Source: Glycocaulis abyssi
GTDB lineage: Bacteria > Pseudomonadota > Alphaproteobacteria > Caulobacterales > Maricaulaceae
Length of the DNA stretch: 64,000 nucleotides
Direction: 5' to 3'
Assembly (NCBI RefSeq): GCF_041429775.1
Contig: NZ_CP163421.1
Coordinates: 744,001-808,000 of the forward strand
The notes under the pieces are model-generated. The model searched no databases, was not told the origin of the DNA, and saw only the letters and a list, made by a program, of their open reading frames with translations. This document shows positions 35,402 through 64,000 of the stretch, one piece after another (the stretch's first letter is position 1; each line of letters opens with the position of its first letter). The position numbers and the translations under genes were made by a program.

Positions 35402-35441
35402 TTGACACTCATGCCTGTGAGCGGCGATGGTAGCGCTAACA
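35402..35441 (+). promoter_or_regulatory. xylX promoter with LacI/XylR operator
   Basis: TTGACA (35402-35407) is a perfect -35 box. The operator TGGTAGCGCTAACA (35428-35441) overlaps the expected -10 position (17-18 bp spacing, GATGGT). From memory it closely resembles the operator described for Caulobacter XylR. Repression by blocking RNA polymerase is the expected mode. Confidence 0.75.
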
Positions 35442-35459
35442 AACAGTGCTCTTGCGGAC

Positions 35460-35470
35460 AGGTCTGACAA
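35460..35470. promoter_or_regulatory. GntR-type operator candidate between the xylX promoter and gene
   Basis: AGGTCTGACAA, matching the TTGTCNGACAA palindrome at nine positions. It lies downstream of the LacI box and 16 bp before the xylX start codon, so the operon may carry dual control. Confidence 0.5.
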
Positions 35471-35486
35471 GAGCCCGGGGGGAGAA

Positions 35487-37420: not shown

Positions 37421-37475
37421 CTCGCCCAGCCTTGAACAACGGGCCCGCCAAAGAGGCCCATGGGGAGGAATAGAC

Positions 37476-38984: not shown

Positions 38985-39004
38985 CCAGAAAGGGACCAAA
39001 TATC

Positions 39005-40447: not shown

Positions 40448-40453
40448 TCTGCG

Positions 40454-44940: not shown

Positions 44941-45052
44941 TTGCGACTTCTCCGGATTGATGCCGCCGGACCCGACAGGGTCGGCAATCAGACATATCAA
45001 CCTGCAAATGCCGTGATAGTGCGAAGCGGTGCTGCTGTCCACCTGAAGCAAC

Positions 45053-45068: not shown

Positions 45069-45113
45069 TTGACCTGAAGCGCATCTCCAAACTACGGTAT
45101 GGTAACGCTAACA
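45069..45113 (+). promoter_or_regulatory. GH3 promoter with LacI/XylR operator
   Basis: TTGACC (45069-45074) and TACGGT (45093-45098) are spaced by 18 bp. The operator TGGTAACGCTAACA (45100-45113) follows at once, one base different from the xylX box. It ends on an ATG that is therefore unlikely to be the gene start. Confidence 0.7.
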
Positions 45114-45154
45114 TGGCCGGCCGCTACACGAGCCGGAACGCCGGGGAGGAAAGC

Positions 45155-47584
45155 ATGATGATAATGGGGCAAATACGCAGACCTTTGCACGCTGTGGCCG
45201 GGGTTGTCGCAGGCGGCGCGGTGCTGTTGATGCTGGCCGGATGGACGGCTGCCTATTCGCGCGGCGGTGCCGCGCAGGACGAAACCCCTCTGTATCGCGA
45301 CGCCTCCCAGCCGGTCGACGCGCGGGTCGAAGACCTGCTCTCACGCATGACGCTGGAGGAGAAGGTCGCCCAGATGATCGGCATCTGGCTGTCCAAGGGT
45401 GATTTGGAGACGCCCGAGGGCGAATTCTCCCCGGAGAACGCGTCGCAGAACTACCCCCACGGCATTGGCCAGATTTCGCGTCCCTCCGATTTCCGGGGCG
45501 CGGACCCTGAAAACGTCGCGGCGGGTGTCTCCGAAGGCGCGGTCAACCGTACCGAGCGCCAGACCGCCGAATACATCAATGCCGCCCAGCGCTGGGCGAT
45601 TGAGGAAACGCGCCTTGGCATTCCGATCATGTTCCACGAGGAGGCGCTGCACGGTTATGTGGCGCGCGGTTCGACCAGCTTCCCGCAATCGATTGCGCTG
45701 GCCAGCACCTGGGACCGCGATCTCGTTGAGCGCGTCTTCAATGTCGCCTCGCGTGAGGTGCGCGCCCGCGGGGCACGTCTGGTCCTGTCGCCTGTGGTCG
45801 ATGTGGCGCGCGATCCGCGCTGGGGCCGGATCGAGGAGACCTATGGCGAAGACCCCTATCTGGTCACCGAGATCGGCCTTGCCGCCATTCGCGGCTTCCA
45901 GGGCGAGACCCTGCCGCTGGAGCCGGAGCGTGTGTTTGTGACGCTCAAGCACATGACCGGCCATGGCGAGCCGGAATCGGGCATCAATATCGGCCCGGCC
46001 AATATCTCCGAGCGCACCCTGCGCGAAGTGTTCTTCCCGCCCTTCGAGGCGGCGATCACGCAGCTTCCCGTCATGTCGGTCATGGCCTCCTATAACGAGA
46101 TTGACGGTCTGCCGAGCCATGCCAATCGCTGGTTGCTCAACGACGTGCTGCGCGAGGAATGGGGCTTTGATGGTGTGGTGGTCAGCGATTACTTCGCGGT
46201 TCGCGAGATCATCACCCGCCACCAGATGCTCGACGATATCGATGACGCCGTCGTGCGCGCAATTGATGCGACGGTAGATATCGAACTGCCTGATCCCGAT
46301 GGCTTCCCCCACCTGGTCCGCCTGGTTCAGGAGGGACGCGTCTCGGAGGAGGCGATTGACGCTGCGGTGCGGCGCCTCCTGGCGATGAAATTCCTCGCCG
46401 GTCTCTTCGATGATCCTTACGTCGACGAGGATGCTGCCGAAGGTCTGACGGCGACACCTGATGCCATTGCGCTGGCGCGTGAAGCGGCTCAGCGGGCCAT
46501 GGTGCTGCTGTCGAACAATGGCACCCTGCCGCTGGACCCCGCCCGCACCGGCACGCTTGCCGTGCTGGGCACCCATGCGGTGGACACACCGCTGGGCGGG
46601 TATAGCGATATCCCCCGCCATGTGGTCAGCGTGCTGGAAGGCATGCAGAACGCCGCCGAGGAGCACGGCAATTTCAACGTCATCTATTCTGAAGGCGTGC
46701 GCCTGACCGAAAGCCGCGAATGGGCCGCCGACGAGGTCGATCCCGTGCCTGCCGAGGTCAATGAACGCCTGATCGCGGAGGCCGTGGAGGCTGCGCGCGG
46801 GGCAGACGTGATCCTGATGGTGCTGGGCGAGAACGAGCAGCTCAGCCGCGAGGCATGGGCCTACGATCATCTGGGCGACCGTCCGACGCTGGAGCTGTTT
46901 GGCCAGCAGATGGATCTGGCGCGGGAGATTTTCGCGCTCGGCAAGCCGACCGTCGTCCTGCTGCTCAATGGCCGTCCGCTGGCGATCCAGGAATTGCTGG
47001 AAGAAGCCGATGCGGTGATCGAGGGCTGGTATCTGGGTCAGGAGACCGGCAATGCGGTCGCCGATGTGGTGTTCGGCGCGGTCAATCCGGGCGGCCGCCT
47101 GCCGGTGAGCTTTGCCCGTTCTGCCGGCCATTTGCCGGTTTTCTATAACCACAAGCCGACCGCCCGGCGTGGCTATCTGCTCGACGAAGTAAGCCCGCTC
47201 CTGCCGTTCGGCTTTGGCCTGTCCTATACGTCGTTCGAGATGTCCGCGCCGCGCTTCCAGCGCTCCACCATTCGCGTAGGCGAGACGGCGATTGTGGAGG
47301 TTGATGTGCGCAACACCGGCGACAGGGAAGGCGATGAGGTCGTCCAGCTCTATGTGCGCGACGATGTGGCATCCATCACGCGGCCGGTGCTGGAGTTGAA
47401 GGGCTTTGAACGTATCACCCTGCGTCCGGGCGAGCGGCGCACAGTACGCTTCGAGCTTGGGCCGGACGCGCTGTCGCTGTGGAATCTGCAGATGGAGCGG
47501 GTTGTCGAGCCGGGCACCTTCACCATCTCGGCGGGTCCGAACTCGGCAGAGCTGCAGTCGGCGACCCTGACTGTAGCGGAATGA
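45155..47584 (+). CDS. GH3 beta-xylosidase/beta-glucosidase, exported
   Basis: A family 3 glycoside hydrolase removing terminal xylose or glucose from oligosaccharides. The start at 45155 follows GGGGAGGAAAGC, giving 809 residues; an in-frame ATG at 45113 lies in the operator. A signal or anchor helix (about 10-35) precedes DARVEDLLSRMTLEEKVAQMIG, the (beta/alpha)8 domain with KHMTGHGEPESG, and the nucleophile Asp345 in GFDGVVVSDYF. An alpha/beta sandwich domain and a fibronectin III-like end (EVDVRNTGDREGDEVVQLYV) follow. In a xylan locus beta-xylosidase is most likely. GH115 follows 38 bp downstream. Confidence 0.88.
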   Translation: MMIMGQIRRPLHAVAGVVAGGAVLLMLAGWTAAYSRGGAAQDETPLYRDASQPVDARVEDLLSRMTLEEKVAQMIGIWLSKGDLETPEGEFSPENASQNYPHGIGQISRPSDFRGADPENVAAGVSEGAVNRTERQTAEYINAAQRWAIEETRLGIPIMFHEEALHGYVARGSTSFPQSIALASTWDRDLVERVFNVASREVRARGARLVLSPVVDVARDPRWGRIEETYGEDPYLVTEIGLAAIRGFQGETLPLEPERVFVTLKHMTGHGEPESGINIGPANISERTLREVFFPPFEAAITQLPVMSVMASYNEIDGLPSHANRWLLNDVLREEWGFDGVVVSDYFAVREIITRHQMLDDIDDAVVRAIDATVDIELPDPDGFPHLVRLVQEGRVSEEAIDAAVRRLLAMKFLAGLFDDPYVDEDAAEGLTATPDAIALAREAAQRAMVLLSNNGTLPLDPARTGTLAVLGTHAVDTPLGGYSDIPRHVVSVLEGMQNAAEEHGNFNVIYSEGVRLTESREWAADEVDPVPAEVNERLIAEAVEAARGADVILMVLGENEQLSREAWAYDHLGDRPTLELFGQQMDLAREIFALGKPTVVLLLNGRPLAIQELLEEADAVIEGWYLGQETGNAVADVVFGAVNPGGRLPVSFARSAGHLPVFYNHKPTARRGYLLDEVSPLLPFGFGLSYTSFEMSAPRFQRSTIRVGETAIVEVDVRNTGDREGDEVVQLYVRDDVASITRPVLELKGFERITLRPGERRTVRFELGPDALSLWNLQMERVVEPGTFTISAGPNSAELQSATLTVAE

Positions 47585-47622: not shown

Positions 47623-50517
47623 ATGAGCATTTGTCCAATCTCCCGCGGTCTCGTGCTCCCGGCGCTTCTGGCCTTGCTTTTCCTGACGGGGCCGGTGGCG
47701 GCCCAGCATCCGGTCCGCGGGGTATGCGATGGCCCTGCCGGCGTGTGTGCCGGGTCTCCGCCGGTTTCCGCCTTTCCCCTGATCGTTTCTGGCGAGCCGA
47801 CTGTTGTGCGTACCGATCCCGGCGATTATCCGGGCCTGCTGCGCGCCGCGCAGGATCTGCGCGATGATCTTGACCGCGTGTCGCGCGGGGAAATCCCTGT
47901 AGAAATCACCAATCTGCGGCGTGTGGACGGCCGCGGCATGGCCGTTATCGCCGGGGTTCTGGGGCGCAATCACGATATTGACCGGCTGGTCGAAGAGGGC
48001 CGGCTGGATGTATCCGGTGTGGCCGGCGAGTGGGAGGCTTATGTCCAGCAGGTGGTCGATAACCCCGCCCCCGGCATAGACCGCGCGCTGGTGATTGCCG
48101 GCTCCGATATGCGCGGGGCCATATTCGGCATTTATGACCTCTCAGAGCGCATGGGCGTCTCGCCCTGGTACTGGTGGGCTGATGTGCCAATCGAGCGCCG
48201 CAGCGATCTCTACGTCACCGAAGGACGCCGGGCAGAGCGCCCGCACGTGCGCTACCGGGGCATCTTCCTCAATAACGAGAACCCGGCCCTGCTCGGCTGG
48301 GTCAACGAGACCTATGGCGGCTTCAATCACCGCTTCTATGGCGATGTGTTCGAGCTGATCCTGCGCTTGCGCGGCAATTATCTCTGGTCGGCCATGTGGG
48401 GGAAAGCCTTCTACGATGAAGATGCGCTCAATCCCATCACGGCAGAGGCGATGGGCGTCGTCGTCGGCACCACCCATCACGAACCCATGCTGCGCGCCCA
48501 TATCGAGTGGGAGCGCTATGGCACCGGCGAGTGGAATTACCGCACCAATGCGGACAATCTCCAGCGCTTCTGGCGTGAGGGGATCACCCGGCTTGCGCGC
48601 CATCAGACGCCGGTCGTGCTCGGCATGCGCGGCGATGGCGATGAAGCCATGAGCGACGAGACCGAGGTGGAGCTGATGGAGCGTATTGTCGCTGACCAGC
48701 GCGCCATCATCGAGGAGGTGACGGGCCGCCCCGCCAGCGAGACACCGCAGATGTGGGCGCTCTACAAGGAGGTGCTCGATTATTACGACGAGGGCATGCA
48801 GATGCCCGACGACGTGATGATCCTGTTTGCCAATGACAATTGGGGCAATATCCGCCGCGTGCCGCAACCGGGCGAGGAACGCGCGGGCGGGTTCGGCATG
48901 TACTATCATTTCGACTATGTGGGCGGTCCGCGTAACTACAAATGGATCAACACCACCCAGATCGCGCGCACCTGGGAGCAGATGAATATTGCGTGGGAGT
49001 TCGGCGCCGATCAGCTCTGGCTGGTCAATGTCGGTGATCTGAAGCCCATGGAACTGCCGATCAGCCACTTCCTGACCCACGCATGGAATCCCGAGGCTAT
49101 GACCCAGGACGTGATGGAAGGCTTCACGCGCGGCTGGGCCGCCCAGCAGTTTGGCGAGGATCATGCCGACGATATCGCCGCGCTGCTGACGGGCTACACG
49201 AACTACAATTCACGCCGCAAGCCGGAGATGGTCGGGCCGGATACGTACAGCCTTGTCAATTTCGATGAGGCCGAGCGCATCCTCGCCGAATGGGACGCTC
49301 TGGCAGAGCTGGCCGATGCCGTGCGGGAGCGCCTCGATCCTGAATATCACGACGCTTTCGTCCAGCTGGTCTGGTATCCGGTGATCGCGGCGGGCAATCT
49401 GAACCGGCTGCATATCGAGACCGCGCGCAACCGGCTCTATGCCGCGCAAGGGCGCGTGGCGGCCAATGCCAGCGCGGATGCGGTGCGCGAAGCGTTTGAG
49501 CGCAGCCATGAACTCGACCGCATCTACGAAGAGGACGTGGCCGATGGCCGTTGGGTCCACATGATGGCGCAGACCCGCATCTCCTATACCTACTGGCAGC
49601 AGCCTGAAGAAGATATCCTGCCGGATCTGGAAAGCGTGACACCGGCGCGCGGCGCGGTGCTGGGTATTGCCGTGGAGGGCGATGAACGGGCCTGGCCGGG
49701 TGCAGACGGCACGCCAGCTCTGCCCGTCTTCTACCGCTATGGCCGTCAGACCCGCCATATCGATCTGTTCGACAGAGGTATAAGCCCGGCCCGCTATACG
49801 CTCGCTGCCGGCGCGCCCTGGGTGCGCCTGTCGCAGACGCAGGGACGCGGCGATGGCCGGGTCGCGGTCTCCATCGACTGGGATTCGGCGCCCGAAGATG
49901 AGGCCAGCGCGGTCATCTCCGTCACGGGTCCTGACCGGAACGTTATCGAGATCGAGGTGAGGGCGGTGAACCCCGCTATCATGCCTGCTGAAGGCGCGTT
50001 CGTGGAAGCCGATGGCTTCGTCGCCATGGAGGCGGCGCATTTCGCCCGTGCGATTGATGGCGAGAGCGTGGAGTGGCGCACCGTGCCAAATCTCGGCCGG
50101 ACGCTCTCATCGGTGACGCTCTTCCCGCCGACCGCAGAGGCCGTCACGCCCGGCGGCGAGTCCCCGCGGCTGGAATACGATATCCACCTGCTTGAAGCCG
50201 GTGAGGTGGAGGTGCAGGTCACGCTATCCCCGACGCTCGATTTCAGAGGGCTGGGCGGTTTGCGCTATGCCGTCTCCATCGGGGACGAAGTCCCGCAGAT
50301 CATCAACATGCATCTCGATGACAGTGACGCCACATGGGAACGCAATGTCGGCAATAATTCGGTCGTCCATACCAGCCGCCACACCGTGGAGGCAGGCCCG
50401 CAAGTCTTGCGCATCTGGATGGTTGATACCGGCCCCGTCTTCCAGCGCATCGTGATCGCGCGTGGGCAGCTGCCACAGACCTATCTCGGCCCGCCGGAGA
50501 GCTGGCGGGGACGGTAG
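47623..50517 (+). CDS. GH115 xylan alpha-1,2-glucuronidase, exported
   Basis: It removes (4-O-methyl)glucuronic acid side groups from glucuronoxylan. 964 residues with a signal peptide ending PVAAQ (about 28). The GH115 core is recognisable from RGIFLNNENPALLGWVNETYGGFNHRFY, LRLRGNYLWSAMWGKAFYDEDALN, GTTHHEPMLRAHIEW, GMRGDGDEAMSD and FANDNWGNIRRVP. A C-terminal beta-rich extension (about 780-960) is usual for the family. It is cotranscribed with GH3, and the hairpin at 50560 follows. Released glucuronate could enter via kdgK and eda. Confidence 0.92.
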   Translation: MSICPISRGLVLPALLALLFLTGPVAAQHPVRGVCDGPAGVCAGSPPVSAFPLIVSGEPTVVRTDPGDYPGLLRAAQDLRDDLDRVSRGEIPVEITNLRRVDGRGMAVIAGVLGRNHDIDRLVEEGRLDVSGVAGEWEAYVQQVVDNPAPGIDRALVIAGSDMRGAIFGIYDLSERMGVSPWYWWADVPIERRSDLYVTEGRRAERPHVRYRGIFLNNENPALLGWVNETYGGFNHRFYGDVFELILRLRGNYLWSAMWGKAFYDEDALNPITAEAMGVVVGTTHHEPMLRAHIEWERYGTGEWNYRTNADNLQRFWREGITRLARHQTPVVLGMRGDGDEAMSDETEVELMERIVADQRAIIEEVTGRPASETPQMWALYKEVLDYYDEGMQMPDDVMILFANDNWGNIRRVPQPGEERAGGFGMYYHFDYVGGPRNYKWINTTQIARTWEQMNIAWEFGADQLWLVNVGDLKPMELPISHFLTHAWNPEAMTQDVMEGFTRGWAAQQFGEDHADDIAALLTGYTNYNSRRKPEMVGPDTYSLVNFDEAERILAEWDALAELADAVRERLDPEYHDAFVQLVWYPVIAAGNLNRLHIETARNRLYAAQGRVAANASADAVREAFERSHELDRIYEEDVADGRWVHMMAQTRISYTYWQQPEEDILPDLESVTPARGAVLGIAVEGDERAWPGADGTPALPVFYRYGRQTRHIDLFDRGISPARYTLAAGAPWVRLSQTQGRGDGRVAVSIDWDSAPEDEASAVISVTGPDRNVIEIEVRAVNPAIMPAEGAFVEADGFVAMEAAHFARAIDGESVEWRTVPNLGRTLSSVTLFPPTAEAVTPGGESPRLEYDIHLLEAGEVEVQVTLSPTLDFRGLGGLRYAVSIGDEVPQIINMHLDDSDATWERNVGNNSVVHTSRHTVEAGPQVLRIWMVDTGPVFQRIVIARGQLPQTYLGPPESWRGR

Positions 50518-50706: not shown

Positions 50707-52500
50707 CTATTCGCCTGAATACGCGTACGGCCCCATGGTCACGCCGACAAACCCGCCTGCAATCCGGGTGGAGAGCAGCGTGCCGTCCGCGTCTTCCAGC
50801 AAAGGCTGCCACCGGCCTTCCTCAAGCGCGTAGTGGAAGTCGTATTCGCCTGCCCGGGCGGTGATGCGCAGGTCGATCGGTGCGCCCGCCTCGCCTTCAA
50901 AGGGGACGCTGGCAAGGATTTCGCCATGCACGTCCTGCTCCGGCCCGGCGCGGCGCTCCACCCGGATCACATCGCCGTCTCCATCGCGGGCAAGCCCGAT
51001 GAAGTACCAGTACTCATCGCTCTGCAGGGCCACGAGCCCGGCCCGGTCGCCCGCCGCCTGCGGCTCAAAGCGCATGCGCATGGAAGCGCTGGCATACATG
51101 TGCTGCTGGCGGCGTCCGAGATAGGACGGGTTGGCGTTCTCGCCCAGCGCCACATTGCGCGCGGTCAGCACCAGGCTGCCCGGCTCGCTGTCGAGATCAT
51201 GCCAGCTTTCCTGCGGCAGGCGCAGCATCATCCAGTGCGGGGGCAGGGGGCCTGAAAAGTCCTCATGCACCTCGAACGCGCCCGCCATGGGCGGATCGGC
51301 CGGTTCCTGCGGCGGCAGGTCCGGGCGGCGATAGGCATAAGGGATGAGATCGCCGTCCCCGGTCATGCGCGGCCAGCCCTCCTCCCAGCTTACCGGCATC
51401 AGGAAGGTCTCGCGGCCCGTATTGTAGAGATCATCGCCATAGGGCCGCACGGCGAGGAAGGTGCCCCACCATTCGCCCGACGGTGTGGTGACGAAGCTGG
51501 CATGGCCGGCAGAGGTGATGGGGAAGGGCCGGTCGCGCGGCAGATCGCGCTGGGTGAGGATGGGATTACCGTCCCACGCCTCGTAGGGCCCCATCGGATT
51601 CTCACTGCGCAGGACGACCTGTGAGTGGCCTTCTGCCGTGCCGCCCTCGGCGCAGATCAGATAGTACAGCCCGTCCACCTTGTAGATGTGCGGGCCTTCG
51701 ATCCAGATCGGCTGGGTAGAGAAATCCACCCCGCCATCGACCAGCACGATGCGCTCGCCGAATGTGGTGAGGGTTTCCAGATCAAACTGCTGGATCCATA
51801 CCGCGCGGTGGCCGTCATATTCCGGCTCGCGGTCTGGCGGGCCATTGTTGAGGATGTAGGCGCGTCCGTCCTCGTCGACGAAGAGGGAGGGGTCGATCCC
51901 GCCCGCGAGATCAGGCAGCCAGACCGGAGCGGACCACGGCCCTGCCGGATCGGTTGCGCTGATGATGAAATTATCGCCGCAATCCACACACGTGTTGAGC
52001 ATGTAAAATGTGCCGTCATGGTAGGCCATGGCTGGCGCGAAAATGCCGCGCGAGAGCCCCAGATTGCCGAAATCCACCATGTCGGTGCGGTCCAGCGCAT
52101 TGCCGATCTGCGTCCAGTTCACCAGATCGCGGCTGTGAAACACCGGAAGGCCGGGAAAATAGGCGAAGGTGGAGGTGGTCAGGTAATAATCCTCGCCCAC
52201 CTGCAGGATGTTGGGATCCGGATAGAAGCCGCCCAGAACCGGGTTCTGGAACTCGCCCTCGCCTGCCGGGAAGGCCTCGTGGGCTGGATCGCCGCCCTCA
52301 TAATGGAACCAGTCGAGCCGGGCCAGCAGCGGGCCGTCCTCACCGGCTTGCGGTGCTTCGGCTTCGCTATCGGAATTGCCAGCGTGCGGGGGTGCAGGCG
52401 GCGCTGCGTTGTCACCTGCTTCCGGCGCTTCACAGGCTGCCAGCATAAGCGCCAGCGCGCTGGCTCCGGTCAGGAGCGCGGAGTTGCTTTTCCGGGTCAT
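50707..52500 (-). CDS. GH43 beta-xylosidase/arabinofuranosidase lipoprotein
   Basis: 597 residues with a lipoprotein signal (LAAC, Cys23), then a Pro/Ala/Glu-rich linker (about 24-58) that would tether the enzyme to a membrane. The five-bladed GH43 domain has the base Asp95 in GGFYPDPNILQ, a second Asp in GGIDPSLFVDEDG, and the acid Glu in WIEGPHIYKVDGLYYL. A C-terminal beta-sandwich (about 400-597) resembles the accessory domain of GH43 xylosidases. It acts on xylo- or arabinoxylo-oligosaccharides. Its own LacI box is upstream; the halogenase genes precede it on the same strand. Confidence 0.88.
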   Translation of the reverse strand: MTRKSNSALLTGASALALMLAACEAPEAGDNAAPPAPPHAGNSDSEAEAPQAGEDGPLLARLDWFHYEGGDPAHEAFPAGEGEFQNPVLGGFYPDPNILQVGEDYYLTTSTFAYFPGLPVFHSRDLVNWTQIGNALDRTDMVDFGNLGLSRGIFAPAMAYHDGTFYMLNTCVDCGDNFIISATDPAGPWSAPVWLPDLAGGIDPSLFVDEDGRAYILNNGPPDREPEYDGHRAVWIQQFDLETLTTFGERIVLVDGGVDFSTQPIWIEGPHIYKVDGLYYLICAEGGTAEGHSQVVLRSENPMGPYEAWDGNPILTQRDLPRDRPFPITSAGHASFVTTPSGEWWGTFLAVRPYGDDLYNTGRETFLMPVSWEEGWPRMTGDGDLIPYAYRRPDLPPQEPADPPMAGAFEVHEDFSGPLPPHWMMLRLPQESWHDLDSEPGSLVLTARNVALGENANPSYLGRRQQHMYASASMRMRFEPQAAGDRAGLVALQSDEYWYFIGLARDGDGDVIRVERRAGPEQDVHGEILASVPFEGEAGAPIDLRITARAGEYDFHYALEEGRWQPLLEDADGTLLSTRIAGGFVGVTMGPYAYSGE

Positions 52501-52546: not shown

Positions 52547-52585
52547 TGTTAGCGCTATCATTTCAGGTGAAATCACACCGCGCAA
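52547..52585 (-). promoter_or_regulatory. GH43 promoter with LacI/XylR operator
   Basis: On the minus strand TTGCGC (52585-52580) is followed after 18 bp by ATGATA. The operator reads TGATAGCGCTAACA (52560-52547) and overlaps that -10. It lies 47 bp upstream of the GH43 start. The 101-bp gap separates GH43 from the halogenase operon, giving it its own promoter. Confidence 0.7.
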
Positions 52586-52601: not shown

Positions 52602-54116
52602 TCACGCCGCTTTCGCGGCGCAGTTCATGGCGATGAAGTCAGCATGGCCCGGCATCTGGTCTGCACAATTGCCGATCACCGAATGCAACTCGTTCATGCG
52701 CGCGCGCAGCGTGGCCTCGTCCATGGCCTCGACCACCGGGTCATAGCTGCGCGGCACCAGGCCCTGACCGATCATTACGGCGAACCAGCTGGTATCGTTG
52801 AACAGCTCGTCATTATCGCGGAAGATCCGCCCGTGGCTCTCGAAGATGCGGTATTTCTCTTTCAGGGTTTCCGGCACGTCCATGGAGCGGCAGTATTCCC
52901 AGAGCGGCGTGTTGTCGCGCTCGGTGAGGTGATAGTGCAGGATGATGAAGTCACGCACCTGCGCGAACTCGCGCGCGATCATGAAGTTGTAGCGCTCGAT
53001 ATCGGCCGGCTCGAAATCGCGGCTGGGGAAGAGGGTAAGCAGGCGCGCAATCCCGCTCTGTATGAGGTGGATAGAGGTGGATTCCAGTGGTTCGAGGAAG
53101 CCTGAAGCCAGCCCCAGTGCCACCACATTCTTCACCCACGCCTTTTTGCGTCTGCCGGTCACGAAGCGCAGCGGGCGCGGATCGGCCAGCGCCTCGCCGT
53201 CGAGATTCGCCATCAGCTTGGCCGCAGCCTCATCGTCGGAAATGAACTGGCTGGAATAGACATATCCATTGCCGATGCGATGCTGGAGCGGGATACGCCA
53301 CTGCCAGCCTGCCTCGCGCGCAGTGGAGCGCGTGTAGGGCGTAAACTCGCCATCCCCGTGCGCGCACGGCACCGCCACGGCGCGGTCGCAGGGCAGCCAG
53401 TGGGTCCAGTCCTCATAACCGGCCTTTAGGGTCTGCTCGATCAGTAGGCCCCGAAAACCGGAACAGTCGATGAAGAGCTCGCCTTCGATCTTCTGTCCGC
53501 TTTCCAGCTCCACGCTCTCGATGAAGCCGTCCTCACTACGCTGGTGAACCTTTGTGATCTTGCCTTCCTGGCGCTTCACCCCGCGCGCCTGCGAATAGCG
53601 GCGCAGGAAACGCGCATAGAGCGAGGCGTCGAAATGGAAGGCATAGGCGATGCGCGAAAGGGGCGAATTGCCTGCATTCACCGGCCGCATGAAGCGGTTC
53701 TGGCTCGCCGCGACCGAGGTCAGCGAATAATCGGTCACAAGGCGCGGATCGCCGCCATGCATCATGCGCAGCCAGTAGGCATGGAAGGACACGCCGTCCA
53801 TATCCACGCCGAACGGTCCGAACGGGTGGAAATAGGTGTGGTTCTTCTTGCCCCAGTCGACGAACTCGATACCCAGCTTGAATGAGCCTTGCGTCTCGCG
53901 GACGAAATCGTCCTCATCCAGCCCCAGCATGCGGTTATAGATATTGATCTGCGGGATGGTGGCCTCGCCGACACCGACAATGCCGATCTCTTCAGATTCA
54001 ACGAGCGTGATGTCGGCATAGCGGGGGCCAAGGATTTTCGCGAAGGCGGCTGCCGTCATCCAGCCGGCCGTGCCGCCGCCCACGATTACGATTTTGCGTA
54101 TCCGGTTCCCGTCCAT
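52602..54116 (-). CDS. Flavin-dependent tryptophan halogenase family protein (paralogue 1)
   Basis: 504 residues from ATG 54116. FAD motif [10 protein letters not shown] (11-20), [10 protein letters not shown] (48-57), the catalytic Lys80 in [12 protein letters not shown], the halogenase WxWxIP motif ([13 protein letters not shown]) and Glu345 in [11 protein letters not shown] are all present, so halogenation (or hypohalous-acid chemistry) is chemically possible. A flavin reductase partner is not in the window. Homologues next to TonB receptors are common in Caulobacterales, sphingomonads and Xanthomonas. Some have been shown to brominate indoles, but the natural substrate is unknown. Last of four tandem genes. 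Confidence 0.85.
53034..53640 (-). repeat. Near-identical tract shared with the next halogenase gene (copy 1)
   Basis: About 600 bp of this gene match 54562-55168 with no insertion or deletion (constant offset 1528). About 200 residues differ at only six positions that I count, while both flanks diverge strongly. It is either a recent partial duplication or gene conversion. Confidence 0.8.
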
Positions 54117-54126
54117 CTCGTCCCCC

Positions 54127-55644
54127 TCAGGCGGCCTCTGGCGCGCGGCAATGCTGATTGATGAAGTCGGCGTGCAACGGCATGGAGCCAGCGGCATCGC
54201 GTACCATGGCGCGTATCTCGTCCAGCGCGCGGGCAATGTTGTCCACCGGCGCGGCATCGACCAGCGGGTCGTAGCCGTCCGGCATCACGTTCTGGCCCAG
54301 CAGGACCGCATACCAGCTGGCTTCGGCGAAGAGTTCATCCTCATAGCGGAAGAGGCGGCCCTTGCTACGGAACAGGGCGAGCTTGCGCGCCAGCGTCTCC
54401 GGCACGTCCATGTGGCGGCAGGCATCCCAGAGCGGTACGCCTTCGCGCTCATTGGCGTGATAATGCAGGATGATGAAGTCGCGGATGAACCCGATCTGCT
54501 GGTCGGTCAGCCGGTTATACTCATCAATCTCGACGTTCGAAAAACCGCTATCGGGAAATAGCGCCAGAAGCCGTGATATCCCGCTCTGGATGAGGTGGAT
54601 AGAGGTGGATTCTAGCGGTTCGAGGAAGCCTGAAGCCAGCCCCAGAGCGACAACGTTCTTCACCCACGCCTTTTTGCGTCTGCCGGTCACAAAGCGTAGC
54701 GGGCGCGGATCGGCCAGCGCCTCGCCATCGAGATTGGCCATCAGCTTGGCCGCAGCCTCGTCGTCGGAAATGAACTGGCTGGAATAGACATAGCCATTGC
54801 CGATCCGGTGCTGCAGCGGGATACGCCATTGCCAGCCTGCCTCGCGTGCTGTCGAACGCGTGTAGGGCGTAAACGCGCCATCCCCGTGCGCGCACGGCAC
54901 GGCGACGGCGCGGTCACAGGGCAGCCAGTGGGTCCAGTCCTCATATCCGGCCTTTAGCGTCTGCTCGATTAGCAGCCCTCTGAAGCCGGAGCAGTCGATG
55001 AAGAGCTCGCCTTCCACGCGCTGCCCGCTTTCCAGCTCCACGCTCTCGATGAAGCCGTCCTCACTACGCTGGTGAACCTTTGTGATCTTGCCTTCCTGGC
55101 GCTTCACCCCGCGTGCCTCGGAATAGCGGCGAAGGAAGCGGGCATAGAGCGAGGCGTCGAAATGATAGGCCCAGTGAAGCTGGGTCACCGGATTGCGGAA
55201 TTGCGGGGAGATGCCGCCAAACCGGTTCTGATAGGCTGCAACGGCACACAGATTGTACTCGGCGAAATCGGCTGCCCGGCCTAGCCTGCGCAGTTTCAGC
55301 CAGTACTGGTGGAACTTCACCGCATTCATGTCCGCGCCGAACGGGCCGAACGGATGGATGTAGCGATGGCCGGGCCGGGTCCAGTCCACGAACTCGATAC
55401 CCAGCTTGTAGCTGCCTTGTGTGGCTTTCAGGAATTCGCGCTCATCAATCCCCAGCACCTCGTTGAACTGGCGGATGGGCGGGATGGTGGCTTCGCCGAC
55501 GCCGACAATGCCGATCTCCTCGGACTCAACCAGCGTGATCTGCGTGACGCCATTGCCGATAAGGCGCGAAAGCGCAGCGGCTGCCATCCAGCCGGCCGTG
55601 CCGCCGCCCACGATCACCACTTGCCTTATGGGCGGCGCGCTCAT
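54127..55644 (-). CDS. Flavin-dependent tryptophan halogenase family protein (paralogue 2)
   Basis: 505 residues. [10 protein letters not shown] (11-20), [10 protein letters not shown] (48-57), catalytic Lys80 in [25 protein letters not shown] and [11 protein letters not shown] are intact. The central 200 residues (roughly 175-375) are almost identical to paralogue 1, but the first 170 and last 130 differ, as expected for different substrates or partners with a homogenised core. It overlaps paralogue 3 by 4 bp and is followed by paralogue 1 after 10 bp, so the genes are translated from one messenger. Confidence 0.85.
54562..55168 (-). repeat. Near-identical tract shared with paralogue 1 (copy 2)
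   Basis: Partner of the tract at 53034-53640; same orientation, same length, offset 1528 bp. Differences are scattered single bases, mostly synonymous. Confidence 0.8.
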
Positions 55645-57119
55645 GGCCGGCTCCCATGCAGCTGGGCCAGCATGTCGCCATGGGCTGGCAGGCGCTGGGC
55701 GGTGTTGGCTACGAGCTGGCGCACCTGCTCGCAGCGCTGTTTCAGCGCCGCTTCATTCAGACCGTTGGCCAGCGGATCATGGTCACGCGGCTCCACGCGT
55801 GCAGCGATGAAGGCCGCGGCCCACATCGCCTCGTTATAAAGTCCGTCCTCGCTGCGCGGAATGCGGCCTCTGGCGTCAAAGAGCGCCCTGTGGCGGGTGA
55901 GTTCCGCAGAAGGCTCAAGCGTGCGAGCGGCCTTCCAGGGCGTCTCTTCGCGCGTTTGTGCGGTGTAGAAGAGGGCGGTGAAATCGCGGGCCGAGCTGGT
56001 CTCGGCGGCGAAGACGCGGCAGTACTCGCGCGCTTCCACCACCCCGCCACCCTCATGCGGAACAAGTTTAAGGAAGCGCAAGGCCGCACTCGCCGCGAGA
56101 TGATGCTCGGCGCTTGCAAGGGGGTCTGGAATGCACGCCGCTGCGCCAATGGCGAGGCAGTTGGCGCTCCATGGTGTCCCCCGCCTGCCGGGATTGAAGG
56201 CGGATATGTTCGCATTGCCGCCCAGGCGTTTTACTGCGGCGTCATCATCCATTTCGCCGGAGGAAAAGATGATCTGGCTGGCGGTGGCTTTGTAGAGCGG
56301 CATGCTGCGCTGCCAGCCAGCGCCGATCGCTTCATTGCGGGTCAGGGGAGAAGGCGAGGCGCTGTCGTCGGCCAGGGCGCTGGCGATCTGGTCAAGCCCC
56401 GGCACCGCCCAGCTTTCCCATGCCACGCCTAGCACGCCGGATATCAGCGCCGCGCGCTCACCTGTGGCGTCGATGAAGAGGTCGGCGCTAATCTTGCGGC
56501 CATCGTCCAGTACGGCGGCGGTCAGCCTGCCATCTGCGCCGCGCTCTGCCGACACCACACAGCCCTCGACTGCTGTCGCACCAGCCTTCAAGGCTGCGTC
56601 CCGCAGGTGCCGGGCATAGCCGCCCGACTCCAGATGCAGGCCGAAATCCAGCGTGGAGAGGATCGAGGCAGGATCGGGCGAGGGCGGCGCAAACCGGCCA
56701 AGACGGGCTGCTGATCCAGCGAGCGAGAAGGCGGCGAGGTCCATATCGCGCACCCGGGTGCCGAGCCGCATCAATTGCTGATGAAAGCGCACCGGGCCGA
56801 CATCCGCGCCTGTATCTCCATAGGGCAGGATGGCCGTGCCGCCGGTCGTCCAGCCAGTATAGCTCTCACCCAGCTTGAAACTGCCGCGCGCAGCGCGCAG
56901 GGCCGCGATGTCATCGATACCCAGCGCATGATGGTGGTCCTGAATGCCGGGCAGGGTGGACAGCGCCAGCGTGTGACTGCCAAGGCTCTCATCCGCCCCA
57001 TCATGGGTCACACTGATCTGCGTGCCGAGGGGGAGAAGCGCGCGTGCGCTCGCCAGCGCAATCAGCCACCCGGCGACCCCGCCGCCGGCAATCAGGATAT
57101 GTCGGGGTGCGCCGCTCAT
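55641..57119 (-). CDS. Degenerate tryptophan-halogenase-like flavoprotein (paralogue 3)
   Basis: 492 residues with the halogenase fold pattern but altered key sites. The FAD motif [10 protein letters not shown] and Lys82 in [12 protein letters not shown] are kept. The GEATIP motif is replaced by LALSTLPGI. WxWxIP is replaced by [11 protein letters not shown]. The catalytic Glu region LESTSIHL is replaced by LASAEHHLA, so the Glu is Ala. It is unlikely to be a standard halogenase. It may be a regulatory or scaffolding partner, or have another flavin chemistry. It sits between two intact paralogues and is translationally coupled to paralogue 2, so it has been kept in the operon. Confidence 0.78.
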
Positions 57120-57122
57120 GGC

Positions 57123-58646
57123 TCAGCCTGCTGCGCTGGCTGGCGGGCGGGTCATGCCGATGGCCACGCCGTGATGGGGCAGGGTATCCGCGAGCGCCGC
57201 GATCTCGGTCTTCATGCGGGCAAAGCGCGCGCGCGCGGCGTCTTCAGGTATGGCTTCTGCCAGCGGATCGAAGCGCCTGGGCAGGATGCGCTGGCCAATA
57301 TAGACCGCGATCCAGCTTGGCGGCAGGAAAACGCCGTATTCATAAGCGGTGGGCACGCCGCGCTCGCGGAACAGCTCCATCTTCCATTTGAGGGAGTCCG
57401 GAATGTCCATGGCCCGGCAATAGTCCCAGAAGGGCGTGTCGTCCCGCTCGGTCGCGTGATAGTGCAGGATCAGGAAGTCGCGCACCCGCTCGTACTCCAT
57501 GCTCATGGATTGGTTGAATTCCTCGGCGTCAGCCGGATCCCACGCGCCGGTGGGGAAGAAGTCCAGCAGATACCCAAGCGCCACCTGGATAAGGTGGATG
57601 GAGGTCGATTCCAGCGGTTCCAGGAAGCCACTGGCGAGACCTATCGCGACGCAGTTCTTGCTCCATTGCTGGCGGCGTTTGCCAGTCAGGAAACGCAACC
57701 GGTTGGGTTCAGCCAGCGCCTCGTTTTCCAGCGCGTTCATCAGGATGTCTTCGGCGCGCGCATCGTCCATGAAGGCGCTGGAGTAGACATGGCCGTTACC
57801 GACGCGGTGCTGAAGCGGGATGCGCCAGCACCAGCCCGCCTCCTGCGCGGTGGCGCGGGTGAAGGGCGGCAGCTCGTGCGTGGACGCACTCGGCATGGCA
57901 ATGGCGCGGTCACACGGCAGCCAGTGCGACCAGTCCTCATATCCGGCTTTTAGCGCCTGCTCGATGATGAGACCCCGGAAGCCGGAACAATCGATAAAGA
58001 GATCACTCTCAATCCTGGTGCTGTCCTCCAGCGTGATCGACGTGACAAATCCCGTCTCCCCGTCCAGCGCCACATCGACAACACGCCCTTCGGTGCGCTT
58101 CACCCCGCGCGCTTCAGAGAAACCGCGCAGGAAGCGCGCATAAAGCGCCGCGTCGAACTGGTAAGCATAGGAGAAGGTGGACAGGAGCGAGCCCATATCC
58201 GTCGTTGGGCGTGCAAAGCGCTCGCGCCGCGCCATCTGGATGGGCAGGGAGTAATCGTCGATCGGCCCCATGGCCGCTTCCCCGCCCAGCCTCTGCCAGT
58301 GATGGTGAAAGCTGACCGGGTCATCGGGATGTCCGTAATCACCGAAGGGGTGAATATAGGCATCGCCCTTGCGCGCCCAGTTGCGGAATTCGATCCCCAG
58401 CTTGATCGTGGCCTTGGTGTCTCTCAGGAATCCCGCCTCATCAATTCCCAGCGTCTGGTTGAAATGGCGGATATGAGGCAGGGTGGATTCGCCGACTCCG
58501 ACGGTGCCTATCGCCTCTGATTCGACCAGTTCGATGGCCGTGCCGGTGCCTTTCAGGCCGTGCGAGAGCGCAGCGGCCGCCATCCAGCCGGCGGTGCCGC
58601 CGCCGACAATGACGACCTTTGAAATCTGCCTCCCCGGCGTGCTCAT
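57123..58646 (-). CDS. Flavin-dependent tryptophan halogenase family protein (paralogue 4)
   Basis: 507 residues, first gene of the four-gene operon. [10 protein letters not shown] (13-22), GVGESTLPHI (50-59), catalytic Lys82 in [25 protein letters not shown] and [12 protein letters not shown] are intact. It is clearly more distant from paralogues 1 and 2 than they are from each other. Paralogue 3 starts 3 bp downstream. A perfect TTGTCAGACAA palindrome lies 20 bp upstream of the start codon, next to the divergent TonB receptor promoter, which links its expression to sugar-acid status. Confidence 0.86.
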   Translation of the reverse strand: MSTPGRQISKVVIVGGGTAGWMAAAALSHGLKGTGTAIELVESEAIGTVGVGESTLPHIRHFNQTLGIDEAGFLRDTKATIKLGIEFRNWARKGDAYIHPFGDYGHPDDPVSFHHHWQRLGGEAAMGPIDDYSLPIQMARRERFARPTTDMGSLLSTFSYAYQFDAALYARFLRGFSEARGVKRTEGRVVDVALDGETGFVTSITLEDSTRIESDLFIDCSGFRGLIIEQALKAGYEDWSHWLPCDRAIAMPSASTHELPPFTRATAQEAGWCWRIPLQHRVGNGHVYSSAFMDDARAEDILMNALENEALAEPNRLRFLTGKRRQQWSKNCVAIGLASGFLEPLESTSIHLIQVALGYLLDFFPTGAWDPADAEEFNQSMSMEYERVRDFLILHYHATERDDTPFWDYCRAMDIPDSLKWKMELFRERGVPTAYEYGVFLPPSWIAVYIGQRILPRRFDPLAEAIPEDAARARFARMKTEIAALADTLPHHGVAIGMTRPPASAAG

Positions 58647-58825: not shown

Positions 58826-58883
58826 TTGCGCTACGGATTTATTAATCAGACATAAGCGCCAAACCAAAATGGTAGCGCTAACA
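58826..58883 (+). promoter_or_regulatory. TonB receptor promoter with LacI/XylR operator
   Basis: TTGCGC (58826-58831) and GACATA (58849-58854) are 17 bp apart. TGGTAGCGCTAACA (58870-58883), identical to the xylX box, follows about 15 bp downstream of the -10. It lies in the 273-bp divergent region between the halogenase operon and the receptor gene. Confidence 0.65.
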
Positions 58884-58919: not shown

Positions 58920-61900
58920 ATGTTTGTATCGTTTGAGGAGAAGTGCGTCCGCCGTCGGCTGTCCACGCACGAGCGCCTGTTGTCGGGGGCGTCGGCCATG
59001 GTGCTGGCGGCCTGTATGTTTACCGGCCCCGCTCTCGCGCAGGTCCAGGAAGAGGACGATGAGGGAGCCGAGGCTTCAAGCGCCGAGGTGATTGTTGTCA
59101 CCGGTTTTCGTGCCAGCCTGCAGACTTCGCAGGATATCAAGCGCGACGCGCAGGTGTTCGTGGACTCGATCACCGCCGAGGATATAGGCGCCCTGCCGGA
59201 CCGTTCGGTCACCGAGGCGCTTCAACGTGTGCCCGGCGTGTCGATTGACCGCTTCCAGGCGGGCGTAGACCCGGATCACTTCTCCATCGAAGGCAGCGGC
59301 GTTGTCGTGCGCGGCCTGACCTGGGTCCGTTCGGAACTGAACGGACGGGATACATTCAGCGCCAATAACGGCCGGATACTGAGTTTCGCCGACGTGCCGG
59401 CCGAGCTCCTCGGCGGCGTCGATGTCTTCAAGAACCAGTCAGCCGATATGATCGAGGGCGGCATTTCGGGCAGCGTGAACCTGCGCACCCGCGTGCCCTT
59501 CGACTCATCGGGGCGCATGCTTGCGGCGTCCTTCGAGGCGAGCTATGGCGACTTCTCGGAGGAGTGGAGGCCAACCGTTTCCGCGCTGTTCTCTAATCGT
59601 TGGGAGACGGCCAATTCTGGCGAGTTCGGTTTCCTGATCAATTATGTGAACTCCCAGCTCGCCGCGCGCAGCGATGGTCAGCAGATTTCCAATTTCGGCC
59701 AGCGTACGCTTTACGATAATGGCGACGTTATCAATGACGGCTCTGCCACGGCCGTCGGGCCTGTTTGGTTCCCGCGCGGTGCGGCCTTCCGGACCCAGGA
59801 TTTTGAGCGCGAGCGTGAAGGTATCGGTGCGGCGGCGCAGTGGCGCAGCCCGGACCGGACCATTGAGGCCACCGCCCAGTTCCTGCGCTCGGACTCGCAG
59901 CAAGCCTGGACCGAGCATGCGATTGAAATCGCGACCGACAACGTGGCCGATCAGGGCGACTCCCGTGCCTTTCCCGGAACCACGCTTTCCTTCGGCCCGG
60001 ACGGCGTGTTTACGTCCGGCCTGATTACCAGCGATTTTACGGGCTGGCGTGACGGCCAGTTCGATGGTCCGGGGTCACGCGGTGTGCGCACGCCAGGCTG
60101 GGGTCTGCAAAGCAATAATATCCGCCGGGACCAGCAACAGCAGTATGTGACGACCGATTACGGCTTCAATCTGCGCTGGGCGCCGGAAGGCCCCTGGTCG
60201 TTCAACGTCGATTACCAGCGCGTGGAATCCTCGGTGGACGTGCTCGATTTCACCTTGTGGAACTCCACCTATCAGGATGCTGAAATCCAGTTGCGTGGCA
60301 GCGATATTCCGATTGTCCGGTTCCACAATCCCGGCCGGTTTGTCACGCCAGGCAATCCGGGCGAGGCACCTGCTGGTGTTCCCTGTACGGTCACGGCCAA
60401 TGACTGCCCGGACTATCCCGGTCATACCAATCTGAGTTCGCCAGCGGCCACATTCACCCGCTCGGCCATGGATCATATCGAACGTAGCGAAGGCACGCTG
60501 GACGCCTTCCGGTTCGATGCCGATTACAGCTTTGACGACTCCAGCTGGCTGCAATCGATCCGCTTCGGTGCCCGGCGTTCGGTCCGCAACCAGACAACCC
60601 GCTTCTCCACGTATAACTGGGGTGTGGTCTCCGAGCAGTGGGGCAGTGGCGGTCCGATCTGGCTGGATGGCAACGTGGCTGGCATTGGCAACCTTGCCAA
60701 TTATCACAGCCCGTTCGGCTTCGATAACTTCATGCGGGGCGATGTTCCGGTGCCGACCGGCGATCAGCCGCGCCTGTTCTGGAATTCGGACACCGTTCAA
60801 AACTATCAGCGCATGATCAATTACGCGCGCGGTGTGAATGATGCGTGGCGTCCTGACACGGCCTGCGGCCAGCCGCAGAACTGGCAGCCGCTGCATCTGC
60901 GCTGCGGTGTCGGCGCGGACTCGCCCTTCCTGTTGCAGGAGATCAATCCGTCGCGGGAGCAGACCGATGCACTCTATGCCATGGCCCGCTACAATGTGGA
61001 TCTTGACCGCGGCGCAAGCCTGAGCGGCAATTTCGGGGTGCGCTTCGTGCGCTTCGACAGGACGGCGAGCGGCTGGCTTTCATTCAACCAGCAGGGCTTC
61101 CTGTCGGACGCGGAATGTGCTGCACAGGCTGCCGATCCGCTTCAGACGCCGTCCACCTTCTGTCAGCTTGATCCGCAGGTCAGGGCCGACGCCCGTGTAT
61201 TTGCCGATGGCTCGCTGGAGGCAAATGACGCGAGCTATACGGATGATTTCTGGTTGCCGAGTTTCAATGCCGTGCTGCGGCTTGAAAACGGCTGGCAGTT
61301 CCGTCTTGGCCTCTCGAAGGCTCTGACATGGCCGGATATCGGCCTGACCCGGAACTTCTACGATATCGAGCTGTCGACCAATGCGCAGGATATCATTGAT
61401 GGCCGTCCTACGGGCCGGTTCAATGTGGGTAATCCCCTGCTGCGTCCAATCCGCTCGGATAATTTCGACCTGTCGGCCGAGTGGTATTTCGCAGATGTCG
61501 GCTCGCTTACTCTGTCGCTCTTCTACAAGCGTCTGCACGATGTCCACACGAATGGTACCGAGCGGCTGTCCTTTACCAATAACGGTGCGACCTTCGACGC
61601 GGTGGTGACGACACCGGTCAACTCCGACAGCACCGGCACGGTGCAGGGCTTCGAGATCGCCTACCAGCAGGTCTATGACATGCTGCCGGCGCCGTTCAAC
61701 GGGCTCGGTGTCCAGGCGAACTACACCTATGTAGACTCCTCGGGCGTGAGCCAGTCGACCTTGTCAGCGACCGACCCGGATGTGGCTGCAGGCAACGTGG
61801 CCAATGTGGACACGTCCCGTCTGCCACTGCAGGGCCTGTCGGAGCACACGGCCAACCTCGCGGCCTTCTATGAAGGCGAGCGCTGGTCGGCGCGCCTGGC

Positions 61901-62165
61901 CTATGCCTGGCGGTCGGAATTCGTGGTGACGGTGCGCGACGTGATCGTGCCGTTCGCCCCGATCATCCAGGAAGACTCAGGGCAGCTTGACGGGTCGATC
62001 TTCTTCTCCGTCAACGAGAACGTGCGGATCGGGCTGCAAGGCGTGAACCTCACCAACGAAGTCACCCGTACCAGCCAGGTGCTCGACAATGACCTTCTGA
62101 CCGCCCCGCGGTCGTGGTTTATGAACGACCGGCGCTTCACCTTCGTGGTCCGCGCCAGCTACTAA
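58920..62165 (+). CDS. TonB-dependent outer-membrane receptor, probable xylo-oligosaccharide importer
   Basis: A 1081-residue TonB receptor behind a GGGGAGGG ribosome site. The signal peptide ends GPALAQ (about residue 40), followed by the TonB box EVIVVTG (56-62). The plug domain has PDRSVTEALQRVPGVSIDRF and the beta-barrel ends in an aromatic terminal residue (RFTFVVRASY). Large receptors of this kind in Caulobacterales and relatives take up glycan oligomers. The LacI box at its promoter and the xylanase genes nearby make xylo-oligosaccharides the likely cargo. It is divergent from the halogenase operon. Confidence 0.88.
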   Translation: MFVSFEEKCVRRRLSTHERLLSGASAMVLAACMFTGPALAQVQEEDDEGAEASSAEVIVVTGFRASLQTSQDIKRDAQVFVDSITAEDIGALPDRSVTEALQRVPGVSIDRFQAGVDPDHFSIEGSGVVVRGLTWVRSELNGRDTFSANNGRILSFADVPAELLGGVDVFKNQSADMIEGGISGSVNLRTRVPFDSSGRMLAASFEASYGDFSEEWRPTVSALFSNRWETANSGEFGFLINYVNSQLAARSDGQQISNFGQRTLYDNGDVINDGSATAVGPVWFPRGAAFRTQDFEREREGIGAAAQWRSPDRTIEATAQFLRSDSQQAWTEHAIEIATDNVADQGDSRAFPGTTLSFGPDGVFTSGLITSDFTGWRDGQFDGPGSRGVRTPGWGLQSNNIRRDQQQQYVTTDYGFNLRWAPEGPWSFNVDYQRVESSVDVLDFTLWNSTYQDAEIQLRGSDIPIVRFHNPGRFVTPGNPGEAPAGVPCTVTANDCPDYPGHTNLSSPAATFTRSAMDHIERSEGTLDAFRFDADYSFDDSSWLQSIRFGARRSVRNQTTRFSTYNWGVVSEQWGSGGPIWLDGNVAGIGNLANYHSPFGFDNFMRGDVPVPTGDQPRLFWNSDTVQNYQRMINYARGVNDAWRPDTACGQPQNWQPLHLRCGVGADSPFLLQEINPSREQTDALYAMARYNVDLDRGASLSGNFGVRFVRFDRTASGWLSFNQQGFLSDAECAAQAADPLQTPSTFCQLDPQVRADARVFADGSLEANDASYTDDFWLPSFNAVLRLENGWQFRLGLSKALTWPDIGLTRNFYDIELSTNAQDIIDGRPTGRFNVGNPLLRPIRSDNFDLSAEWYFADVGSLTLSLFYKRLHDVHTNGTERLSFTNNGATFDAVVTTPVNSDSTGTVQGFEIAYQQVYDMLPAPFNGLGVQANYTYVDSSGVSQSTLSATDPDVAAGNVANVDTSRLPLQGLSEHTANLAAFYEGERWSARLAYAWRSEFVVTVRDVIVPFAPIIQEDSGQLDGSIFFSVNENVRIGLQGVNLTNEVTRTSQVLDNDLLTAPRSWFMNDRRFTFVVRASY

Positions 62166-63578: not shown

Positions 63579-64000
63579 ATGCTGACGCGTAGACAGACCC
63601 TGGCCCTTGGTGCGGGCGGCCTGGCGGCGATGGGGGCACCGGGCCTCGTCATGGGCCGGGAGGATCGCGGACCGTCCCTGCACGAGCTGGCACAGGCCAA
63701 GGGGATGCGCTTTGGCAGCGCCATCGGGGTGAGCCCTCCGGGCACGGTTTCCGGGGCCTTCCACGATCCGCAATACCGCCAGCTTCTGATCGATGAGTGC
63801 GGCGTTCTGGTCCATGAGAACGAGCTGAAATGGTATGTCGCGCGGCCTGATGCCGAGACATTCGATTTCGAACGCGCCGACATCATCATGGATTTTGCCG
63901 AGGAAAACGGCATGGAGATGCGCGGTCATACCTTGCTGTGGCATCACACCAACTGGTTTCCTGACTGGATAAACAATCACGATTTCGGCTCGCGCCCGGC
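63579..64000 (+). CDS. GH10 endo-1,4-beta-xylanase, 3' end outside window
   Basis: The visible 140 residues begin with a Tat-type signal (TRRQTLALGAGGLAAMGA). The GH10 N-terminal pattern follows: GMRFGSAIGVSP, then LIDECGVLVHENELKWYVARPD and FDFERADIIMDFAEENGMEMRGHTLLWHHTNWFPDW. GH10 enzymes cut the xylan backbone. The catalytic Glu residues lie beyond the window edge. This completes the endo-acting part of the locus; the products would be imported by the TonB receptor. Confidence 0.92.
   Translation, partial: MLTRRQTLALGAGGLAAMGAPGLVMGREDRGPSLHELAQAKGMRFGSAIGVSPPGTVSGAFHDPQYRQLLIDECGVLVHENELKWYVARPDAETFDFERADIIMDFAEENGMEMRGHTLLWHHTNWFPDWINNHDFGSRP

Follow-up and report, generated by a model that had tools for sequence, protein, structure and literature searches.

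Results

Four halogenase-family genes divergent from a TonB receptor

The DNA analyzed here is a 64,000-nucleotide stretch of the Glycocaulis abyssi genome (Alphaproteobacteria, Caulobacterales, Maricaulaceae; contig NZ_CP163421.1, positions 744,001 to 808,000), referred to below as the window. The element under study is an array of four genes of the flavin-dependent halogenase (FDH) family, confirmed at positions 52602-58646 on the minus strand, head to tail and divergent from a gene for a TonB-dependent receptor. In order of transcription, we name them A (57123..58646, 507 aa), B (55641..57119, 492 aa), C (54127..55644, 505 aa) and D (52602..54116, 504 aa counted from the ATG at 54116). All four match PF04820 over the cut-off (646.6, 301.3, 675.6 and 673 bits, respectively), and a search of the whole genome, in which 15 candidates were scored, returned these four PF04820 genes only. 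A and B are separated by 3 bp, B and C overlap by 4 bp, and C and D are separated by 10 bp if D starts at 54116; the longest open reading frame (ORF) of D, starting at 54257, would extend into C, and the later methionine still precedes the FAD motif. The receptor (58920..62165, plus strand, 1081 aa) matches TIGR01782 and carries the motif YNWGVVSEQW around its tryptophans W567 and W574.

A, C and D retain GGGTAGW, GVGE(A/S), the lysine, WxWRIP and EPLES, that is, all of their catalytic motifs. Each combines a PF04820 score over the cut-off with the FAD glycine motif, Lys, WxWxIP and Glu of a BrvH-type flavin-dependent halogenase and, judged from these signatures, the three are apparently working halogenases. 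B keeps the FAD glycine motif (GGGVAGW) and the lysine, with WQRSMP in place of WxWxIP and DPLAS in place of EPLES; it lacks the WxWxIP motif and catalytic Glu that mark an active halogenase and is referred to as the pseudo-halogenase or dead member. The preliminary description of this DNA, which reported four stacked halogenase-family genes, three of them with Lys, catalytic Glu and WxWxIP, opposite a TonB receptor and next to GH43, GH115 and GH3 genes, is borne out by the PF04820 scores, the gaps and overlap of 3-10 bp, the TIGR01782 match and the family matches of the neighbors.

Among solved proteins, the closest to A, C and D are BrvH, 9luq and Xcc4156, ahead of the tryptophan halogenases; PrnA, RebH and PyrH, which halogenate free tryptophan, have PF04820 and the catalytic motifs in common with the array but match A, C and D with lower scores. 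The substrate loops of A, C and D are as short as those of BrvH (region 1, 14-16 residues against 15; region 2, 11 residues in both), where the loop limits, taken from PMC7336383, are possibly about two residues off and region 2 is absent in one cut gene. RebH and Th-Hal, in contrast, have longer substrate-binding loops according to the accessible part of PMC7336383, and the extended loop that closes over tryptophan in halogenases of the PrnA/RebH type was not found in A, C or D. BrvH (6FRL), a Brevundimonas-type halogenase from a marine metagenome, shares motifs as well as loop lengths with A, C and D and falls outside their groups in our tree; the accessible part of PMC5945002 reports slow bromination of indole, no halogenation of tryptophan and a second halogenase gene just upstream of brvH. 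Xcc4156 (6Y1W, Xanthomonas campestris) is BrvH-like and is placed with 9luq and the FDHs of loci L118, L119 and L120, not with the array genes. The accessible part of PMC7336383 describes its site as open, proposes larger substrates, possibly peptides, and presents halogenases of the BrvH and Xcc4156 types as lacking a known native substrate.

A conserved cassette with a dead second member

A point that the preliminary description had not noticed is that the array is one conserved cassette; nor had it remarked on the operator-like site common to the array and the xylan genes or on the converted block of C and D, both described below. PF04820 was searched in 61 genomes including that of G. abyssi, at least 45 of which had a match, and the spacing of the array recurs among these matches. 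Twenty regions were taken. In 16 of them, as in the window, A and B at least are present, which makes a set of 17 arrays; L041 is without C, and contig ends truncate L051 and L052. Another arrangement, with C and D only, flanks the receptor in L048. Motifs are intact in A of 17/17 arrays, in D of 16/16 and in C of 16/16 (with the Glu out of sight in one cut C).

This invariance bears on the possibility that the enzymes are halogen-free flavin monooxygenases or oxidases acting on the receptor, its ligand or a redox partner. The FAD motifs are kept, as this explanation would have it, and there are weak matches to the model of QhpG (all four proteins) and to that of the LodB maturase (C); QhpG and LodB are flavoproteins that oxidize tryptophan residues of partner proteins. 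However, both models score far under their cut-offs, and every A, C and D gene of the arrays carries the halogenase-diagnostic Lys, Glu and WxWxIP where these can be seen. We consider this explanation improbable.

WxWxIP is found in none of the 17 second genes, and 14 of the 16 arrays in which the aligned Glu position is visible have another residue there. The other two are L043, in which EPLES is present elsewhere in the protein, and L047, where the second ORF (266 aa) was assigned by place and a 35-bit match and the alignment is unsure. The lysine is kept in the window copy alone of the 17, with Arg in L034 and L040. In L042, L044, L045 and L047, the second gene is merely 266-433 aa long and A, C and D are complete. 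Ratios of nonsynonymous to synonymous substitution (dN/dS, NG86 method) between the window and Alkalicaulis are 0.205 for B, 0.069 for A, 0.112 for C, 0.071 for D and 0.117 for the receptor; pairs with Glycocaulis profundi give 0.42 and 0.55 for B and 0.23 and 0.30 for A (YN00 returned values for some pairs only). B is thus far more divergent than A, C and D, yet looks to be under purifying selection. We considered that B might be a decaying pseudogene and rejected this in view of its open frame, its dN/dS of 0.205 against Alkalicaulis and its presence as the second gene of 17 arrays.

Among the best 80 of 380 relatives, arrays with a dead member also occur in Niveispirillum, Henriciella, Marinimicrobium, Gilvimarinus, Paraglaciecola and others; of the five in Gammaproteobacteria, four are ordered as receptor, FDH, dead member, FDH. 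In these wider scans, a gene is called dead by a motif rule (without WxWxIP or EPxE), and a few such calls may be frameshifts; in L216 and L217 the dead calls lie in a neighboring opposite-strand pair. In one gammaproteobacterial locus, L141, three active halogenases alternate with two that are dead by this rule.

Near-obligate coupling to one receptor clade

In a receptor tree with 55 members, those beside arrays (17, with L048 counted and L051 not) form one clade with support 100. The remainder consist of 28 receptors without an FDH in view, 18 of which are flanked by under 4 kb of sequence on at least one side and may in some cases have an unseen FDH, and 10 beside other FDHs, partly taken because FDHs were present, so that 10/38 is no rate.

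We also searched from the receptor side at E <= 1e-150, using a profile (A2) built from 20 receptors found beside FDHs and scoring the best two to five candidates per genome. Matches were obtained in 6/289 class-level and 47/150 order-level genomes, and the resulting 77 distinct loci were all examined. An FDH-family gene lies within 6 kb in 74/77 of them, the nearest being within 400 bp in 69/77; the three without an FDH are L284, L304 and L308, of which L304 has its receptor at the end of a contig and L308 is the weakest match. A copy dead by the motif rule is found in 43/77 loci. Counted as active and dead members, the loci divide into (3,1) in 26, (1,0) in 24, (2,1) in 13, (2,0) in seven, (1,1) in three, (4,1) in one and (0,0) in three. 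As a separate observation, L129, L131 and L256-L259 have GH43 and a receptor of the same clade with two FDHs only and no dead member, and offer a natural comparison for the role of B.

The glycan genes beside the cassette vary. Pfam scans of selected neighbors found GH9 in L043, GH5 and an alpha-galactosidase in L041, GH16 with a carbohydrate-binding module match under the cut-off in L036 and a CE2-type esterase in L039, and no glycoside hydrolase among the scanned neighbors of L038 (four) and L037 (five). The same gene order and the same dead second member are kept beside GH9, GH5/alpha-galactosidase and GH16, L041 being without C. In the 77-locus survey, where the glycan probes were the GH3, GH43 and GH115 proteins of the window and other glycan genes were missed, the GH43 and GH115 probes match near 8/43 loci with a dead member and 4/31 other FDH loci. 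GH10 was not found in the array genomes G028 and G030, and GH115 occurs in 4/61 genomes, that of G. abyssi included. The cassette follows the receptor clade through different glycan contexts, not xylan, and this suggests that its enzymes work for the receptor rather than for the digestion of xylan as such. The array was found, in these sets, with one receptor clade and with varying glycan genes, not with unrelated receptors lacking glycan genes.

Halogenases beside TonB receptors are familiar from annotations in this group of bacteria. What is new here is a conserved dead halogenase in a fixed position and a near-obligate coupling to one receptor clade. Literature searches joining (tryptophan) halogenase and TonB terms returned no title pointing to such an association, and nor did broader searches among the papers listed; the word halogenase is absent from PMC2996990 and PMC5507952, and the accessible part of PMC8269204 contains nothing on receptors.

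The coupling also weighs on the possibility that the enzymes make a halogenated small molecule of indole or phenol type from a free aromatic, serving as a signal, a weapon or a receptor-borne carrier, which the receptor would import or sense or with which it would merely be co-regulated. BrvH and its Xanthomonas relatives take free indole derivatives according to the accessible parts of PMC5945002 and PMC7336383, and A, C and D, as three separate active groups, might act one after another or as alternatives with different regioselectivity. On the other hand, the turnover of indole by BrvH is described as slow in the accessible part of PMC5945002, no flavin reductase or natural-product biosynthesis family was found among the scanned ORFs of the window locus, the antiporter at 62261-63574 is of a cation/proton type, and near-obligate linkage to one receptor clade would be unexpected for a pathway to a free metabolite. 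We regard such a product as possible, if doubtful.

Receptor tryptophans and a proposed role for the cassette

Two tryptophans distinguish the receptor clade. W567 is present in 92/92 aligned rows and W574 in 91/92 (two rows are identical, and the low-scoring L304 and L308 were left out), each occurring in about 1/28 FDH-free receptors (2/28 for W567 and 1/28 for W574 in another alignment). A third, W376, tracks the dead member (48/53 versus 10/39). The tryptophan content of FDH-linked receptors is 1.64%, 1.30% and 1.33%, versus 0.88%. W567, W574 and perhaps W376 are read as lying in predicted extracellular loops.

Our main reading is that the four genes are the halogenase module of a particular clade of glycan TonB receptors and act on a protein partner, most simply the receptor; we give it a probability of about 0.3, and receptor bromination is our best guess, not a result. 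We propose that the local glycan would be sensed and the array and receptor made together. A housekeeping reductase would supply FADH2 to A, C and D, which would form hypobromous acid and brominate or oxidize indole groups in a partner protein or peptide. Modification would occur in the cytoplasm before export, the simplest target being tryptophans of the newly made receptor (W567, W574 and perhaps W376), and B might pair with an active subunit, serving as a scaffold or holding the substrate. Ligand binding by the receptor, or its stability, would be tuned in this way. In its most specific form, a bromination machine specific to the receptor, made up of three active halogenases with the dead member as partner subunit and acting on conserved receptor tryptophans before export, the proposal is rather unlikely.

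Several observations weigh against receptor bromination. When ancestry is controlled for, the association of W376 with the dead member rests on pairs of 3:0 (p 0.25, not significant), its association with multiple FDHs gives 1:0 with four rows left out (not significant), and tryptophan richness gives about 2:1 (not significant), with a tyrosine control behaving alike. The tryptophan signals, strong before this control and not significant after it, are therefore no more than suggestive as evidence of modification. The full motif is missing from FDH-linked receptors outside the clade, where N566-W567 is found in 0/10 and a tryptophan at 574 in 4/10, and the number of FDHs does not equal the number of candidate tryptophans. 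Sugar stacking alone is expected to yield invariant tryptophans in a sugar receptor, with no modification needed. As to the partner subunit, B of L043 may retain an EPLES Glu motif, constraint on B is weaker against G. profundi (0.42, 0.55), and a dead member is not seen in 31/74 FDH-linked loci, in which B is dispensable or was overlooked.

If true, receptor bromination would mean a dedicated post-translational halogenation in bacteria and a native substrate for the orphan halogenases of the BrvH type. Proteins as targets would further represent a new way of modifying proteins in bacteria, and the enzymes would supply tools for halogenating peptides. The pairing with a receptor and the fixed dead paralogue turn the question of the native substrate of BrvH-type enzymes into a specific, testable one.

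The surrounding xylan locus and its operator-like sites

The setting of the array in the window is a glucuronoxylan/xylose locus. Upstream lies a LacI-family regulator (34335..35381, plus strand), likely the reader of the operator-like sites described below, followed by FAH-type, SDR, MFS sugar transporter, ALDH, lactonase and epimerase genes (35427..42183, plus strand; the first gene probably starts at 35487), which we take to be an oxidative pentose pathway of the Weimberg type. An ILVD/EDD-family dehydratase (42177..43961, minus strand), likely a pentonate dehydratase, and a GntR/FCD regulator (44158..45051, minus strand) precede a xylosidase-type GH3 gene (45113..47584, plus strand; its best NCBIfam models score under their cut-offs) and a GH115 gene (47623..50517, plus strand), of the alpha-glucuronidase family. 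GH43 with a C-terminal ConA-like domain (50707..52500, minus strand) lies downstream of D on the same strand. The GH10 neighbor of the preliminary description is real but lies mostly past the window end, its domain starting in the window at 63675..64000 (plus strand); GH10, a second GH3, GH9 and an acetylesterase-type gene are found past that end. A CPA2-type cation/proton antiporter (62261-63574) between the receptor and GH10 is unexpected in a xylan locus.

With a TonB receptor, xylan glycoside hydrolases and a sugar regulator, the region has the composition of a xylan carbohydrate utilization locus containing a TonB-dependent receptor (CUT locus). The Xanthomonas XCC4120 xylan CUT locus likewise groups a receptor with carbohydrate genes and is induced by sugar, according to the accessible part of PMC1790865, and the word halogenase is absent from the main text of that paper.

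A LacI-type operator-like 14-mer, TGGTAGCGCTAACA, lies between the array and the receptor (58870..58883, plus strand). Allowing at most one mismatch, it occurs at five places in the 3.05 Mb genome, all inside this locus: the others are between D and GH43 (52547..52560, minus strand, one mismatch), before GH3-GH115 (45100..45113, plus strand, one mismatch), before the xylose-oxidation operon (35428..35441, plus strand, no mismatches) and between the GH9 and acetylesterase-type genes. At two mismatches, sites also appear elsewhere and the reversed control pattern is commoner (22 and 19 versus 9 and 6), so only near-exact sites are meaningful. The receptor-side site is conserved in Alkalicaulis (L123), L124 and G. 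profundi (L125), and the stretch is absent from the aligned L126. The array thus appears to be wired into xylan use in this genome through a shared putative operator, and the linkage to xylan proposed by the preliminary description is real here and apparently regulatory too.

The shared operator, however, is local. Of 19 array promoters examined for palindromes, some with approximate limits, AGCGCT-type palindromes were seen in five (the window, L034, L045, L046 and L123), another half-site in L036, L037 and L039, and weak palindromes in L126 and L252. None was found in the other nine, including L040, L261, L262 and L263, which all have xylan-type hydrolases; the shared operator is therefore a feature of this lineage and not of all xylan arrays. 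Operator types differ, with TGGTAGCGCTAACA in the window, a TTGACAACGATGTCAA-like site in L039 and a TTGACAACGCTGTCAA-like site in L036, which fits a module that connects to the glycan regulation of its own locus. That some arrays take another operator type could also suit pure co-regulation, in which the halogenases answer general halide or redox stress and hitch-hike on receptor operons. We find this very unlikely in view of the 74/77 linkage, the conserved order, the conserved dead member and the single receptor clade.

The preliminary description had further raised plant aromatics, attached to xylan or released with it, as possible targets of the enzymes. In favor of this, the array, receptor, GH43, GH115, GH3, acetylesterase-type gene and xylose pathway share one operator-like site, and, among the matches listed, PF04820 genes and GH115 co-occur in the same 2/6 genomes of the genus. 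Against it, the locus ORFs scanned with Pfam gave no feruloyl-esterase match (an acetylesterase-type gene is present), and the sole family with an aromatic-catabolism name in these ORFs, FAA_hydrolase at 35427-36647, is read as a member of the pentose pathway. The same array stands beside GH9, GH5/alpha-galactosidase and GH16, and, as given above, GH10 was not found in two array genomes, GH115 occurs in 4/61 genomes and the GH43 and GH115 probes match near 8/43 loci with a dead member. We accordingly reject the array as a xylan speciality; the xylan link is real but local, and xylan-borne aromatics, which we hold to be highly improbable as the substrate, are not supported as a general role.

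Sequence exchange between C and D

A central tract of 579 nt in C (54586..55164, minus strand, approximate limits) is 91.9% identical to its partner block in D (about 53058-53636, minus strand), with 39/43 differing codons synonymous. Outside the tract, C and D are 61.3% identical and 54/207 differing codons are synonymous. In the tree, the C genes of the window and of G. profundi are placed within the D group, and we attribute both the tract identity and this placement to gene conversion. Recurrent conversion between C and D was also considered; among 15 arrays compared, the strong tract is found solely in the window and G. profundi (L034), with a weak one in L040.

Other genes beside the arrays

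Cupin_8 (JmjC-like) genes adjoin the receptor and FDH loci L034, L040, L041 and L045 and, by eye, L042; genome G000 has one Cupin_8 match, below the cut-off and far from the array. Protein hydroxylases beside halogenases would suit a theme of protein modification. A DUF6445 protein is encoded beside the array of L044 (6339-7028), and by eye similar proteins lie near the FDHs in L042 and L050.

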